Shown: in pieces, positions 17,290 to 21,981 of the stretch | Numbering within the stretch: position 1 is the stretch's first letter | Layout of the letters: each line of letters opens with the position of its first letter | DNA from: Ricordea florida | Lineage: Eukaryota > Cnidaria > Anthozoa > Corallimorpharia > Ricordeidae | Length of the DNA stretch: 64,000 nucleotides | Direction of reading: 5' to 3' | Assembly (NCBI GenBank): GCA_949710005.1 | Contig: OX453272.1 | Location: forward strand, 18,480,262 to 18,544,261 | Translations under genes and position numbers: made by a program | The notes under the pieces: generated by a model | What the model saw: only the letters and a program-made list of their open reading frames with translations | What the model was told of the DNA's origin: nothing | The model's database searches: none

Positions 17290-17436
17290 TTAAAGGAGAA
17301 CGGAAGGCTACAGGGTATATTTTTTGTAGCTACTTATGATGAAAGGGAAAACCATAATTTCGCTTTGGGGATGAGGAAAAACAAGTTTTTCGATGTGAAA
17401 ACGGCGTAAAACCAAGCGTTTTGGTCAAATTTGAAT

Positions 17437-17518
17437 CGCCGCCATTTTGTAAGCATTCTCTTCCGGTCACTTCCAAAAAAGGAATGCCAGTCGCCATGTT
17501 GTGACGTCATTGCGCTCA
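17437..17518 (+). promoter_or_regulatory. Left Kolobok promoter motifs (YY1-like, CRE)
   Basis: CGCCGCCATTTTG (17437-17449) resembles a YY1 site and TGACGTCA (17502-17509) is a consensus cAMP-response element, within TGACGTCATTGCGCTCA. They lie 100-190 bp upstream of the ATG at 17625. The same motifs appear in inverted order at the other end of the element. No TATA box was seen. Confidence 0.6.
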
Positions 17519-17624
17519 TGTGGTTCTCTTCTTGATGATAAAAGAAGCGGAGTGGGCTCATAGATATTGGTATTCCAAAAGCAAGCAGAATAGTTTACTT
17601 AGAGAAAGTGGTAGTTTGGTAGCA

Positions 17625-18910
17625 ATGGCCGAGTTTGAACCATATTCATTTGAACCCATGCGAGATCTCTCGGATTCCGACGAGGAAGGAGCTGAAAATC
17701 CGAACGAGATCGCCAGGAGAGGAAATACAGTATGGTGTAGTTGTGGTCATTGCGAAAACTGGGAAAATCAACAGGAAAGAGAATGTCTGTGTTGCCAAGA
17801 GATGGACGAAGCTGTATCTAAACTGTCAGGTGAAAATTATTGAAAAAACGAGAATAAATATTACGATAATGATCGATCGTGTTGTTTCTGTGTGTGTAAG
17901 TATTCCGTGATATGAATTTCTGTGCGATCTTTTGTTTGCGAATTCTGTGATACCATGTTTTCATTATTTGGCTCAGATATGGGAACAGAATATCTCCACG
18001 GCTGTATTACTCAGCATCCTAGTTTTAATACAGTATGCTTGCAAAGAGAGGTGCTGGAGACAGCCATTGTTGGCTTGAGTCAGGCGCGTGGAATACGAGC
18101 GCCGCGAGAACTTAATAATATGTAGGTATCCAAAACAAGAATGTGGGATGTCTGTTCTTGTTACTTTATTTCGCTGAGAAGATATATAATATCTACTGAT
18201 GGCATTCAGTTTTAGTCACTGGCTGAAGTATTCCAAGCTATTTTTATTGATGGAAAAGTGATTTAAACATTATATGCATCAACCACAATAAGCACGTATA
18301 AAACAGTAAGATATGAGCGTGACTTCGTGACCACATAACTGCACCTACAATTGCAAATAATGTTTTGATGAACATGTTTGGAATCACCGTCTTTTACCTA
18401 CCAATAAGTACGATTAAACACCATACACCACAAGCTCTGACACTTTTGAAAAATGTTGGGACAGAGAAATCGCTTACCTTTTAAAATCAAAAACAACAAT
18501 TTAGTGATTCAAGTCATTGTTGTAGTGCTCTCGAAACACGAAACATACACGTTAACTTCATTTCTCAGTTTTTAGTCGTCACAATACAAAATTGGAATAA
18601 AATAGAACCACTCCGCATAATATATTGAGGTTAACTGGCCTAGAAACTGAACTACAATCAACACCTCTGGGGTAGAACTTGATATTTACATGTTTCTTCT
18701 TTCAGAAATTATCGTTATGCAGCTTATCGCCAATTTACATGGTGGGTACATAATAGACTGGGGAGGTATGTCCGAAAAGTAATCCCTGCTTGCGTTGTGA
18801 AAGCAATTAGAGGAGTCTATCCTAATGCTGATGGGAATTACACAGGTTTTCGAAACCCTGATGAAAGCTACTCGGAGGTGGACTTATCCTGGATACAAGA
18901 AACTGTGTAA
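17625..18910 (+). CDS. P2X7 'ballast'-like zinc-binding protein (184 aa, 3 exons)
   Basis: Exons 17625-17829, 17977-18121 and 18706-18910 join in phase (phase 1, then phase 2) at GT-AG sites to give 184 residues. The order of features follows the zinc-coordinating cytoplasmic domain of vertebrate P2X7 receptors: FEPYSFEP at the start; an acidic stretch DSDEEGAENPNE; WCSCGHC (about 47-53) and CLCC as Cys clusters; CITQHPSFNTVCLQREVLE in exon 2; YAAYRQFTWWV; then VIPACVVKAIRGVYPNADG and NYTGF in exon 3. There is no membrane segment or channel domain. It is probably a transposon-encoded nuclear or cytoplasmic accessory protein. The CDS end overlaps the 3' end of the opposite transposase by 43 bp. 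An alternative donor at 18127 would put a stop codon in frame, so the GTAGGT donor at 18122 is preferred. Confidence 0.85.
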
Positions 18911-21494
18911 AAGAAATATAATAAAACTTTGTTCAGTTGGCTGAATTGAAACGAGATGTGTTTATCGATCAAATCCTCTTTCGCTGGCCTTGCTGTAGGA
19001 GCAATGTTCGGTGCTTCAGGCCTTAGGGGAAGGGCAGGTACCTCAATTTGTCTCCTCTTAAATGCCAGTAGACCAGTCATAAGATCTCCCAAAAACTGGT
19101 AAGACTTCTCTTCATATTGAGGCTTTGCAACCCATCCCTGACTTCCCTTTGGAGAGACAAATTTGTGTTTCTTTGCACCCTCCTTTGTCTGGGCTTGGGT
19201 ACGTCCCACATTATGATTGTGGTCGAGAATAGCAAGTTGAGTACGTGCCCTCATGCCTTCGTAGGAGTAGTGCTGCAAATTTTTGCAGTACTTCTTTGCC
19301 ATAAGGCCATGATACATTTCCAGGATGATTGTATGGATGAACTCAGCAAGCATTGCGATGTCCTTCAGAAGCGACTTGTTCCAGGCAACCTCCTTCAATG
19401 CATCGTGGGCGGGACTTCCAACTTTAAGCCATTGCTTCCGTTGTTCCGTTTCTCTTGGGATGGGTGGATGCGCGCACTGATCGAAATGCTGACAGCCATC
19501 CCAGTGGTGGATGTTGGCCGTGTGGTACACTATGGATTTCCATTTTTCAACACATTCGGTGGCATTACCCTGTGAGGTTTTTGCGCACCACCACAAGTGA
19601 ATTACAATAGCATGTACCCATGGTTTGAGGGCCGCACATGGTTTTGTCTGCGTCTTTTTGGTAAGTTTCTTTTGCACAGACTTAGCCATGTGCCAAACAT
19701 CAAAGTTATGCTTGATATTCGGCCTCTCTTTTTTCATATGCGCTCTCACTTGTACATGCCTGTCAGTTGCAAGTTTGGAAATGGTGACATTTTCGTCTTG
19801 CAGGTGATTTAGGCAACGCTTTAATCCCTCTAGCTCCATTCCATTTGAATTCTTAACTTCGGTTACTTGTACTAGTGAAAAGTCAAGCACTTTTGATGAA
19901 GTTGTGTCCACTATGCTGTAAGTCCCGTATTTTGCCGAGTGGCCCGGACTATCACAGCGACCATCACCTCCTGCCACAACCTCCGTGTTTCTCACTTCGT
20001 TTAACATCTCCGCTTGATGTTCAGTGAACTTTTTGTTAACGATGGGGAACAAGTATTTTTTCTGAGTGAAGTTGAAGTTTCTTTCACTGAAAAATTGGAT
20101 GTTACTTGCTTTTGCAACATTAGCAAAGTTACCGTAATCATTCCCTGTAAAGAGAATTCCAGCACTTAGAAGTAAATTTCCTGCTGCCATCGAACTAACA
20201 AAGGGTTGTGTCTGCCACCGCAGTGGTTTTTCGCAGCAGGCAAGGGTTTCAATGGTCGCCAGGGAACCTTTCGTTTTCAGAGTTACGTTTCTTACCTCCC
20301 GTCCACAATTGGGACAGTGAACACATTGAGAGAAAAGCTCTTTTAGTTTGCTTTCAAACACTATAAACTTTCTCTCCTCGTGAAGATCTCCGCAGTTTTC
20401 TTCAAGCCAGTTGTTGGACTCCTTTTCCACCTCATCATCACTGTCATCATCATCAGCCGGAACTTCGCTTTTCGTGTCACAACGCTCTATTTCCTCGAAG
20501 AAATCGCTGTCTGGGTCGTCTCCAAATTCTGATTCATCAGACTCGGACATCTCCGGCAGCCATTCATCGTCACTTTGCTCTTCATTGCATTTTATTTCCA
20601 TCTCGGTGAAATCTAGTTCCTTCTTGGGTTGTGCAGACTCCCTAACATCAGCATTCTGCTCGTCCGGGTGATCACTGGAGGACGCGTAGCTATGGTCATG
20701 AAATACAGCGTGCTGAACGTGAGCTAAGGGAATAGATTTCACCTGAGGGAAGTCGATGGCAAAGGGTATGTCCGTCTGGCATGCTTGATCCACTGTGGTT
20801 ACAACAGTTTGACTACAGCAGTCGACTGAAAGGGTCCAGAAATTCAATTTTCTTTTTTTTCGTTTCGGCTCGGAACATTTCATGACACTTGACCGCACTG
20901 CCTTAGATGTCACGAAACCTTCGTTTGGAAAATTATTTGCAGCCTGAACTTGTTCACTGCTTTCCAAAATTTGATCGAGGGCCTGAAATGTTGAATACAA
21001 ATTCAAGAAATAAAGGTCATTTGCTGTTTCTGACCCTGCACATTTGAAAAAAAAATCGACATTTATCTTGTCTTTACTGTTTCCTTTGTACGCACTCTGA
21101 TAGAATTAGTATTTACGCCGCTCTCGTACAAATACCAAACGCCACTTACCTCTTCATAATGAGCTTTACGTTTTCGGCGTTCACTGGCAGGCCTTTGGCT
21201 TGAGTTCTTCTTGTGTGGAAATTTAGTGGGGATAGCATCATCCTTTAAGCTGCCGCGTTTTGGGGCTTTACCGGGCAAAAGCACTTGCCTGTAGTCAATT
21301 TCGAAACACCATGGTTCAAAATGATCTGAACAGATGTGGCAGTTTTTCAGTGGCGGTAGGTTCTTTCTCTTTATCTGAGCCAGCCATTTATTGAGCTGTC
21401 CTTGATCTTTCAGTGGAAAGCGATGAAAACTTATTCCTTTCTTCGAATCTCTGGGAGTTCTATTCGAACAACCTACCACGACGCATTGAACCAT
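18868..21494 (-). CDS. Kolobok transposase (THAP + DDE, 819 aa, 2 exons)
   Basis: Exon 1 is 21494-21150 (115 codons) and begins MVQCVVVGC. It holds a THAP C2CH finger (C...C, FHRFPL, CHICSDHF, LLPGKAP) and ends at GTAAGT. Exon 2 is 20982-18868 after ATTTCAG, in phase 0. It starts with ALDQILESS, has a DQACQTDIPF motif, a long acidic region, a CPNCGREV zinc-type motif and then the catalytic core. Candidate DDE acids are Asp in AGGDGRCDSPGHSAKYG (about 455), Asp in KLATDRH or NFDVWHM (about 522/543) and Glu in IILEMYHG (about 670). The core layout with SPGHSA and KHNFDVWH fits Kolobok transposases. No stop or frameshift interrupts it. THAP binds the element ends; the DDE core cuts and joins DNA. 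Confidence 0.9.
18920..18926 (+). promoter_or_regulatory. Polyadenylation signal of the P2X7-like gene
   Basis: AATAAAA starts 10 bp after the stop at 18908-18910. This implies a very short 3' UTR that lies inside antisense transposase coding sequence. Confidence 0.55.
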
Positions 21495-21518
21495 TTTGAA
21501 ATTTGGCGCGTATGCAAG

Positions 21519-21577
21519 TGAGCGCAATGACGTCATGCTCAGCCGCCGCGCCTTCAAAATGGTGGACAAGATGGCGG
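21519..21577 (-). promoter_or_regulatory. Right Kolobok promoter motifs (CRE, YY1-like)
   Basis: The reverse complement of TGACGTCATTGCGCTCA lies at 21519-21535, with CAAAATGGTGG (21555-21565) and AAGATGGCGG (21568-21577, YY1-like). They sit 25-85 bp upstream of the transposase ATG (21494) on the minus strand and mirror the left-end motifs. Confidence 0.6.
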
Positions 21578-21981
21578 ACATACAGCGTGTCTCTTTCGTG
21601 GGCTTTTTTCCGTGTAAAACAACCTTGCAATGGCCGTTAAGGTACAAAAACTGTAATTTTAACTCAATTAGTACTATTTAATTTCTTATAAAGGTGACTA
21701 AAAAATGTCGTTTATGGCCTTCAGTTCTCCCTTAAGTGCTACATACATGTACACTCTAACATCTACCACAAAATAATTTCCTTTCTCAGCAGGTAACTGA
21801 GGAATCAGAAGAACCACCTCAAAAGAAGAAACCCATTAGGCATTTCATGCCAACTTCTCATACCTGTTCAAACACATTGGATTTGCAAAGAGGAAATGCA
21901 GTTCTCCCTCTCCCATCAGATGATGAACTATTCAAACTGTACGACCTAGCTTTCAAGAATAATTACTTTGGCGTTATGTAG

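Follow-up and report, generated by a model that had tools for sequence, protein, structure and literature searches.

Why should a gene resembling the cytoplasmic tail of a receptor, P2X7, lie beside a transposase gene between matched TTAA sites, and what might its product do there? The question is raised by a locus of Ricordea florida, within a 64,000-nucleotide stretch of contig OX453272.1 (the window), for which a first-pass annotation had proposed an intact Kolobok transposon with a P2X7 ballast-like accessory gene, here termed KolX. The features of the locus are collected in Table 1.

Table 1. Features of the element, by position in the window.
Feature	Position	Strand	Remark
TTAA target-site duplication, left copy	17290..17293	.	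read directly
Left terminal inverted repeat	17294..17308	+	13/15 same as right end; 5'-AG = RR
CCGCCATTTTG motif upstream of KolX	17439..17449	+	in the orientation of KolX
17-bp motif TGACGTCATTGCGCTCA	17502..17518	+	107 bp ahead of KolX ATG
KolX exon 1	17625..17829	+	EPYSFEP motif, acidic stretch, WCSCGHC, CLCC
KolX exon 2	17977..18121	+	CITQH
KolX exon 3, including stop	18706..18910	+	YRYAAYRQFTWW ... VIPACVV.AIR ... YTGF
AATAAA shortly after KolX stop	18920..18925	+	
Transposase exon 2, DDE core	18868..20982	-	as read, the final ~29 codons form a frame-shifted tail
Transposase exon 1, THAP domain	21150..21494	-	Pfam E=1.1e-18
17-bp motif TGACGTCATTGCGCTCA	21519..21535	-	25 bp ahead of transposase ATG
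CCGCCATCTTG motif upstream of transposase	21567..21577	-	in the orientation of the transposase
Right terminal inverted repeat	21717..21731	-	element finishes CC-3' = YY
TTAA target-site duplication, right copy	21732..21735	.	read directly

The element spans positions 17294-21731 of the window, flanked on each side by TTAA. Both the exact TTAA duplications and the matched terminal inverted repeats of the first-pass annotation are present, the latter with 13 of the terminal 15 bp identical between the left and right ends and an alignment that is patchy past ~14 bp. All 28,594 pairs of TTAA sites in the window with a spacing of 0.3-10 kb were compared. Six of these, the element included, reach 13/15, and the other five belong to two long, unrelated inverted repeats, in whose arms they lie. 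A 4-bp TTAA target-site duplication is a feature of the Kolobok superfamily, as are termini of the form 5'-RR ... YY-3' (PMC9587614); we read them in this element as AG...CC.

The insertion lies in an intron of a HECT gene, with HECT exons on both sides, which Pfam recognised only after manual splicing of the flanks (the raw flanking open reading frames gave nothing); such an insertion was not met in the KolX literature covered. Within the window there is no second copy of KolX, of the transposase or of the element. Searches of viral contigs with the transposase and alignment A3, and of genome contigs with alignment A3, returned no relative. Since no second DNA copy was found, the linkage of KolX to the transposase across copies rests on one match together with the literature. 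The only other match in the window is a 32%-identical THAP at 12174-12389.

KolX consists of three exons, with every intron GT..AG, and its spliced product of 184 aa matches the Pfam family P2RX7_C (PF20478) at E=2.5e-17, scoring 63.9 bits against a gathering cut-off of 23.5 bits. This is its only Pfam domain, the P2X channel domain not being matched. Taken singly, the exon 1 reading frame matches P2RX7_C at E=3.5e-4, under the Pfam cut-off, exon 2 has no Pfam match, and the exon 3 reading frame matches at E=1.2e-9. Rat P2X7 is matched by the KolX sequence at E=3e-7 and by the KolX family profile at E=9e-16. The window copy keeps 22 of the 22 near-invariant residues of the family, and the three Cys clusters that coordinate zinc in the P2X7 ballast (consensus in Rump et al. 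2020, PMC7016195) have their counterparts in KolX, where WCSCGHC, CLCC, CIT and IPAC are all found. A fold prediction of moderate confidence, made for the KolX relative P0001 rather than for the window KolX, returned 36 rows in Foldseek, of which 14 had E<=0.001, and each of these 14 was P2X7 (TMq 0.47-0.50, rmsd 3.5-10.4). The splicing, the Cys clusters and the C-terminal blocks are thus as the first-pass annotation described them, and by its sequence KolX is a member of the P2X7 ballast family. Nor is the gene restricted to one locus: two protein searches, pooled, gave 141 distinct KolX-related proteins, and those with a name belong to corals, anemones, hydrozoans, a sponge, ticks, a bivalve and an annelid. 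In several cnidarians relatives are annotated 'P2X purinoceptor 7-like', labels which probably denote transposon genes and not receptors.

The transposase gene converges with KolX. The 819-aa reading proposed for it is possible (exons 21494-21150 and 20982-18868) and contains the expected THAP domain and DDE core, but it is not the uninterrupted gene that had been described. The window DNA does contain the conserved C-terminal end of the family, only in a different frame; the 819-aa reading instead continues into an unrelated tail, 43 bp of which overlap KolX. Furthermore, 3 of the 75 near-invariant transposase residues are changed; one change lies three residues ahead of the presumed catalytic Glu, and one of the three is mild (Ile to Val). 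The claim that neither gene carries a stop or frameshift therefore fails for the transposase, while KolX still reads intact. With the transposase showing decay, the mobility of this copy is doubtful. Recent activity of the family is possible, given that one transposase relative, the 12-sequence cluster P0046, is 96% identical over 90%, and one KolX piece (P0007) 97% identical over 36%.

In P0166 numbering, D155, D222, DVWH (243-246) and E370 are each at least 90% conserved, and from their position D155, D222 and E370 are the presumed catalytic residues. A DDD/E transposase with C/DxxH, here DVWH, between the second D and the E is a further Kolobok feature. In a structure search the core matched RNase-H-type folds, with ISCth4, integrases, Hermes and similar among the matches listed; no P-element structure is among the best 50 rows, which has no bearing on the difference from the P element. 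A PDB search with the transposase profile, by sequence only, gave one match at chance level, and a viral fold library gave 0 of 114 rows at E<=0.001. We made the assignment to Kol0 by encoded features. KolX is encoded beside the transposase, the arrangement that defines the Kol0 lineage (PMC9587614), and zinc-finger-like C/H residues (H307, C318 and H320, at least 90% conserved, within HHWDGCQHFDQCAH) lie between C/DxxH and E, as in nearly all Kolobok lineages except Kolobok1 (PMC9587614). KolobokP/E/D/5 are marked by a second CCHC finger that follows the first D (PMC9587614); by eye none is present in the D155-D222 stretch, which fits Kol0. On these features, the element is very probably a Kolobok DNA transposon of Kol0 type, represented by one genomic copy, and the THAP/DDE transposase, the P2RX7_C match and the predicted fold of the relative bear out the original description of an accessory gene of P2X7-ballast type carried by a Kolobok element.

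It is important to note that the further suggestion, that the P2X7 tail derives from such an element, is right but is the published view. According to Kojima & Bao 2022 (PMC9587614), the KolX proteins of Kolobok elements in the Kol0 lineage have the P2X7 ballast fold, and P2X7 arose when a P2X4-like gene was joined to KolX, so that the derivation is not new; vertebrate P2X7 would, as they propose, have reused the KolX module as its cytoplasmic ballast. The main additions of the window copy are one more example, the PYxFEP motif of KolX and the upstream motif shared by its two genes. Judging from the KolX and P2X7 literature as met here, rather than from a dedicated search, both motifs look new.

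The two TGACGTCATTGCGCTCA copies form a perfect 17-bp sub-terminal inverted repeat, one copy upstream of each gene, and by this common motif KolX and the transposase would be expressed together. The CCGCCATTTTG motif we take to resemble a YY1 site. The transposase would bind the element ends via its THAP domain, and its DDE core would cut and join at TTAA. KolX, with a presumably rigid zinc-stabilised C-terminal module and a disordered acidic N-terminus bearing the conserved PYxFEP motif, would be a small accessory protein acting in trans, linking the transposase complex with a partner, host or self. Our best guess, tentatively held, is thus that the most likely role of KolX is that of a protein adaptor. 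We consider it improbable that the transposase cannot do without KolX as its partner, with PYxFEP recruiting a specific host factor and the ballast fold serving as a protein-docking (or degenerate nucleotide) module. If true, it would mean that a surface already used between transposon and host was adopted by P2X7, in keeping with the reported behaviour of the P2X7 ballast, which is said to act fairly independently of ATP binding (PMC9859053).

Other roles for KolX have to be weighed against that of an adaptor. By analogy, KolX might be a guanine-nucleotide-binding cofactor, providing in trans a function that is built into the P element: the P-element transposase, also a THAP enzyme, needs GTP to position the transposon ends and uses it through an insertion domain (PMC7776569), and the only solved KolX relatives, P2X7, bind GDP/GTP (PMC7016195, PMC9859053). 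Among those of the 141 related proteins with a readable motif (114 or 97), the R546 equivalent is R in 102/114 and the R578 equivalent R in 96/97. However, at the remaining rat P2X7 contacts, the H547 equivalent is Y in 87/114, the R574 equivalent V/I/L in 94/97 and the K583 equivalent E or D in 63/97, and the window KolX has R, Y, V, R and N at the R546, H547, R574, R578 and K583 equivalents, which is not the P2X7-type site. Rump et al. (PMC7016195) give the same residue loss in a smaller set, yet in their view GDP binding may persist. We have marked this reading down on residue conservation at the nucleotide site, and think it quite unlikely. A nucleic-acid-binding or DNA-handling protein, making contact via the basic/aromatic block RYAAYRQFTWWVHNRLG...R.VIPSC...IR, is conceivable but doubtful. 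The most conserved part of the KolX family is Arg- and aromatic-rich, and accessory proteins for DNA processing, nucleases and a helicase, occur in other Kolobok lineages (PMC9587614), but the Foldseek rows for P0001 included no DNA-binding protein or nuclease that rose above noise, no catalytic signature was seen in KolX, and its N-terminus is acidic.

The converging genes and their shared upstream motif suggest co-regulation, and a zinc-stabilised module with an acidic tail could also suit a protein that regulates or represses the transposase, or one that counters host silencing, instead of a reaction cofactor; we regard such a role as unlikely. It is hardly credible that the 184-aa gene is a P2X7-like or nanor-like host gene that sits between TTAA sites by chance or hosts the transposon. 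Cnidarian annotations point that way, and Rump et al. treat such genes as host genes (PMC7016195), but KolX and the transposase both lie between matched termini with target-site duplications and have the 17-bp upstream motif in common, the surrounding host gene is HECT, and KolX is the published Kol0 gene (PMC9587614). As the adaptor that we favour, or in another role, the intact KolX is a natural stand-alone ballast whose part in transposition a simple assay could address; PMC9859053 describes the P2X7 ballast as having no known function.

Compared with known systems, the element resembles Kol0 (Kolobok-1_XT type; Kojima & Bao 2022, PMC9587614) in its TTAA duplication, RR...YY termini, DDE transposase and separate KolX of cytoplasmic-ballast type, and differs in the frame-shifted C-terminus of its transposase. 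KolX shares with the P2X7 ballast the Cys clusters, the R546 and R578 equivalents and, as predicted for its relative, the fold, but it lacks the channel part of the receptor and the GDP-contact residues other than R546/R578, and bears the N-terminal PYxFEP motif. Like the Nanor/ZCD proteins described across animals by Rump et al. (2020, PMC7016195), KolX is a short ballast-domain protein that stands alone, yet those are treated there as host genes and KolX lies within a transposon. The transposase, finally, has the THAP domain and RNase-H DDE core of the P-element and THAP9 transposases, and may differ from the P element, which has a built-in GTP-binding insertion domain (PMC7776569).

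The 184-residue KolX protein, encoded by three exons with GT..AG borders, matches the Pfam family P2RX7_C with 63.9 bits (cut-off 23.5; E=2.5e-17). All four of its matches in the PDB sequence set are to P2X7, the best having E=3e-7 and improving to E=1.6e-16 with a profile of 12 relatives. We also predicted the structure of a coral relative, P0001, which is 78% identical across 91% of the window protein, using 22 other relatives as the alignment (mean pLDDT 71.5, pTM 0.67). Foldseek returned 36 rows for this model; the 14 with E<=0.001 are all P2X7 (TMq 0.47-0.50, rmsd 3.5-10.4), and the other 22 have E >= 3. 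Since the Pfam, PDB sequence and predicted fold matches all lead to P2X7, the first-pass annotation was right to recognise a P2X7 ballast domain in this gene. KolX retains all 22 columns invariant among 12 relatives, which in a single copy cannot demonstrate selection.

A first search gave 45 KolX relatives from 61 candidates, and a search with a 12-row alignment gave 136 from 1,889 (120 among the matches listed), together at least 141 distinct proteins. The best named matches are among stony corals (Oculina, Acropora, Pocillopora, Stylophora, Porites and Montipora); others come from Actinia, Exaiptasia, Actinostola, Hydractinia and Clytia among the remaining cnidarians, and from a sponge (Corticium), ticks (Ixodes, Hyalomma), a bivalve (Solemya) and an annelid (Capitella). 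The gene is thus not peculiar to this locus; had it been, that was to have counted against the first reading. Several relatives carry the database label 'P2X purinoceptor 7-like'. One predicted protein, P0207 (304 aa), has a reverse-transcriptase piece (PF00078) N-terminal to its KolX domain, and may be read-through of a nested insertion. Linkage of transposase and KolX in another copy rests on one pair, P0034 (KolX) and P0055 (transposase), whose longest contigs are equal in length at 566,324 bp, and on the literature.

In the sections covered here, Kojima & Bao (2022, PMC9587614) assign KolX of the Kol0 lineage to the cytoplasmic-ballast fold, trace P2X7 to the joining of KolX to a P2X4-like gene, and regard Nanor as probably a domesticated KolX. 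The proposal that a KolX-type element was the source of the P2X7 tail agrees with this view, and hence was already known. Stand-alone ballast proteins across animals had been found earlier by Rump et al. (2020, PMC7016195), who report, in the part covered, that ballast genes across invertebrates have two linked markers next to them and that one tick protein combines THAP ('TAHP') with a ballast domain; both findings might reflect transposon neighbourhood rather than ancestral synteny. Our conclusion is that the original observation is correct, that the element type is known, and that this copy is a further member showing some overlooked decay.

Both genes had been read as free of stops and frameshifts, yet the transposase is frame-shifted at its C-terminus and altered at 3 of 75 core columns. 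Aligned with 21 of the 120 relatives listed (3 rows stop short), its C-terminus diverges from every row that reaches it, and the family's conserved tail is found in the window DNA in a different frame; a small deletion or insertion would therefore most simply explain the shift, which would in turn account for a reading that extends to 819 aa and overlaps KolX by 43 bp. By pattern, this tail ends 78 of the 120 relatives listed, the other 42 having no pattern match. The core columns lost (among 75 with 97% or higher conservation in 25 or more of 35 relatives) are a mild Ile to Val change, Lys to Asn, and Gly to Ile. The lost Gly stands three positions N-terminal to the putative catalytic Glu and is kept in 98 of 99 pattern-readable relatives out of 120 listed. 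Recent activity does not follow from intact genes here, but the family may have had a fairly recent period of activity, because close relatives exist: transposase P0046 (96% identity over 90%) and KolX piece P0007 (97% over 36%). Separately, TQT occurs within the first 250 residues of 71 of the 120 transposase relatives listed (P0046-P0165); as a candidate motif it resembles those that bind dynein light chain LC8.

The element's terminal 15 bp are inverted repeats identical at 13 of 15 positions. Among 28,594 TTAA pairs spaced 0.3-10 kb across the whole window, six reach this match, the element's included, and the remaining five all fall in the arms of two long inverted repeats distinct from the element. 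The termini, 5'-AG ... CC-3', agree with RR...YY, the Kolobok form according to the covered part of Kojima & Bao (2022, PMC9587614). A 17-bp perfect inverted repeat, TGACGTCATTGCGCTCA, lies 107 bp upstream of one ATG and 25 bp upstream of the other, with each copy pointing the same way with respect to its gene; at up to 3 mismatches these are its only copies in the window, a number equalled in 1 of 100 shuffles. Beside both stands the motif CCGCCATNTTG, found 5 times in the window (0.05 expected), 3 of them outside the element. Both motifs presumably bear a likeness to CRE and YY1 sites.

With HECT-type exons on both sides, the element seems to sit in an intron of that gene. The flank peptide joined across the element, with donor and acceptor borders chosen by hand, matches PF00632 (E=3.7e-6, 27.2 bits, cut-off 23.9) over a span that includes the joint; Pfam gave no match on the raw, unspliced flanking ORFs, and the joined peptide no noteworthy match among PDB sequences. 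The region is abundant in mobile elements. The long inverted repeats, with arms 80-96% complementary, are perhaps other DNA transposons, and the neighbouring THAP and DDE_Tnp_4 domains perhaps another THAP-bearing transposase gene.

Features of the element and its surroundings (window positions)
Feature	Position	Strand	Details
Kolobok element	17294-21731		4,438 bp; TTAA copies at 17290-17293 and 21732-21735
HECT-type ubiquitin-ligase-like gene, flanking exons	16263-16856 and 21760-21978	+	PF00632
Long inverted repeat	2598-2791 / 5982-6157		arms 57+91+43 nt
Long inverted repeat	7610-7894 / 11732-12017		arms 189+94 nt
THAP domain	12117-12689	+	E=6.5e-10
DDE_Tnp_4 domain	13151-13573	+	E=1.6e-28
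Integrase core (rva_4)	23551-24183	-	
ISXO2-like (IS1595) transposase domain	28304-29230	+	
Endonuclease/reverse-transcriptase ORF	45234-48005	+	924 aa

Presumably the transposase would bind the element ends through THAP, and cut and join at TTAA through DDE. For KolX, we tentatively favour a co-expressed accessory adaptor as the likeliest role; that it handles DNA is doubtful, and that it acts as a regulator unlikely. In most KolX proteins the N-terminal part contains a PYxFEP-like motif and, after it, an acidic stretch rich in Ser. Of 50 proteins in which the first and the last Cys landmark are both present, 41 have [YF]xFEP; several of the remaining 9 show near-forms, as do ticks and Solemya. 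A short conserved motif within an acidic tail suggests a putative docking segment. Rump et al. (2020, PMC7016195) call the N-terminal parts of ballast proteins 'variable', without obvious homologs, and the sections of PMC9587614 and PMC7016195 covered make no mention of the motif.

A guanine-nucleotide cofactor is attractive because the P-element transposase, likewise a THAP protein, uses GTP (PMC7776569, in the part covered), but we regard it as less likely still, given that most nucleotide contacts are absent from KolX. Pattern-read from 141 proteins, leaving out those without a match, the equivalents of the rat P2X7 contacts R546 and R578 are Arg in 102/114 and 96/97, while that of H547 is Tyr in 87/114, that of R574 is Val, Ile or Leu in 94/97, and that of K583 is Glu or Asp in 63/97. 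In the part covered, Rump et al. (2020, PMC7016195) report that GDP contacts besides R546 and R578 are not kept outside deuterostomes, and our counts show the same pattern of GDP-contact loss as their smaller set.
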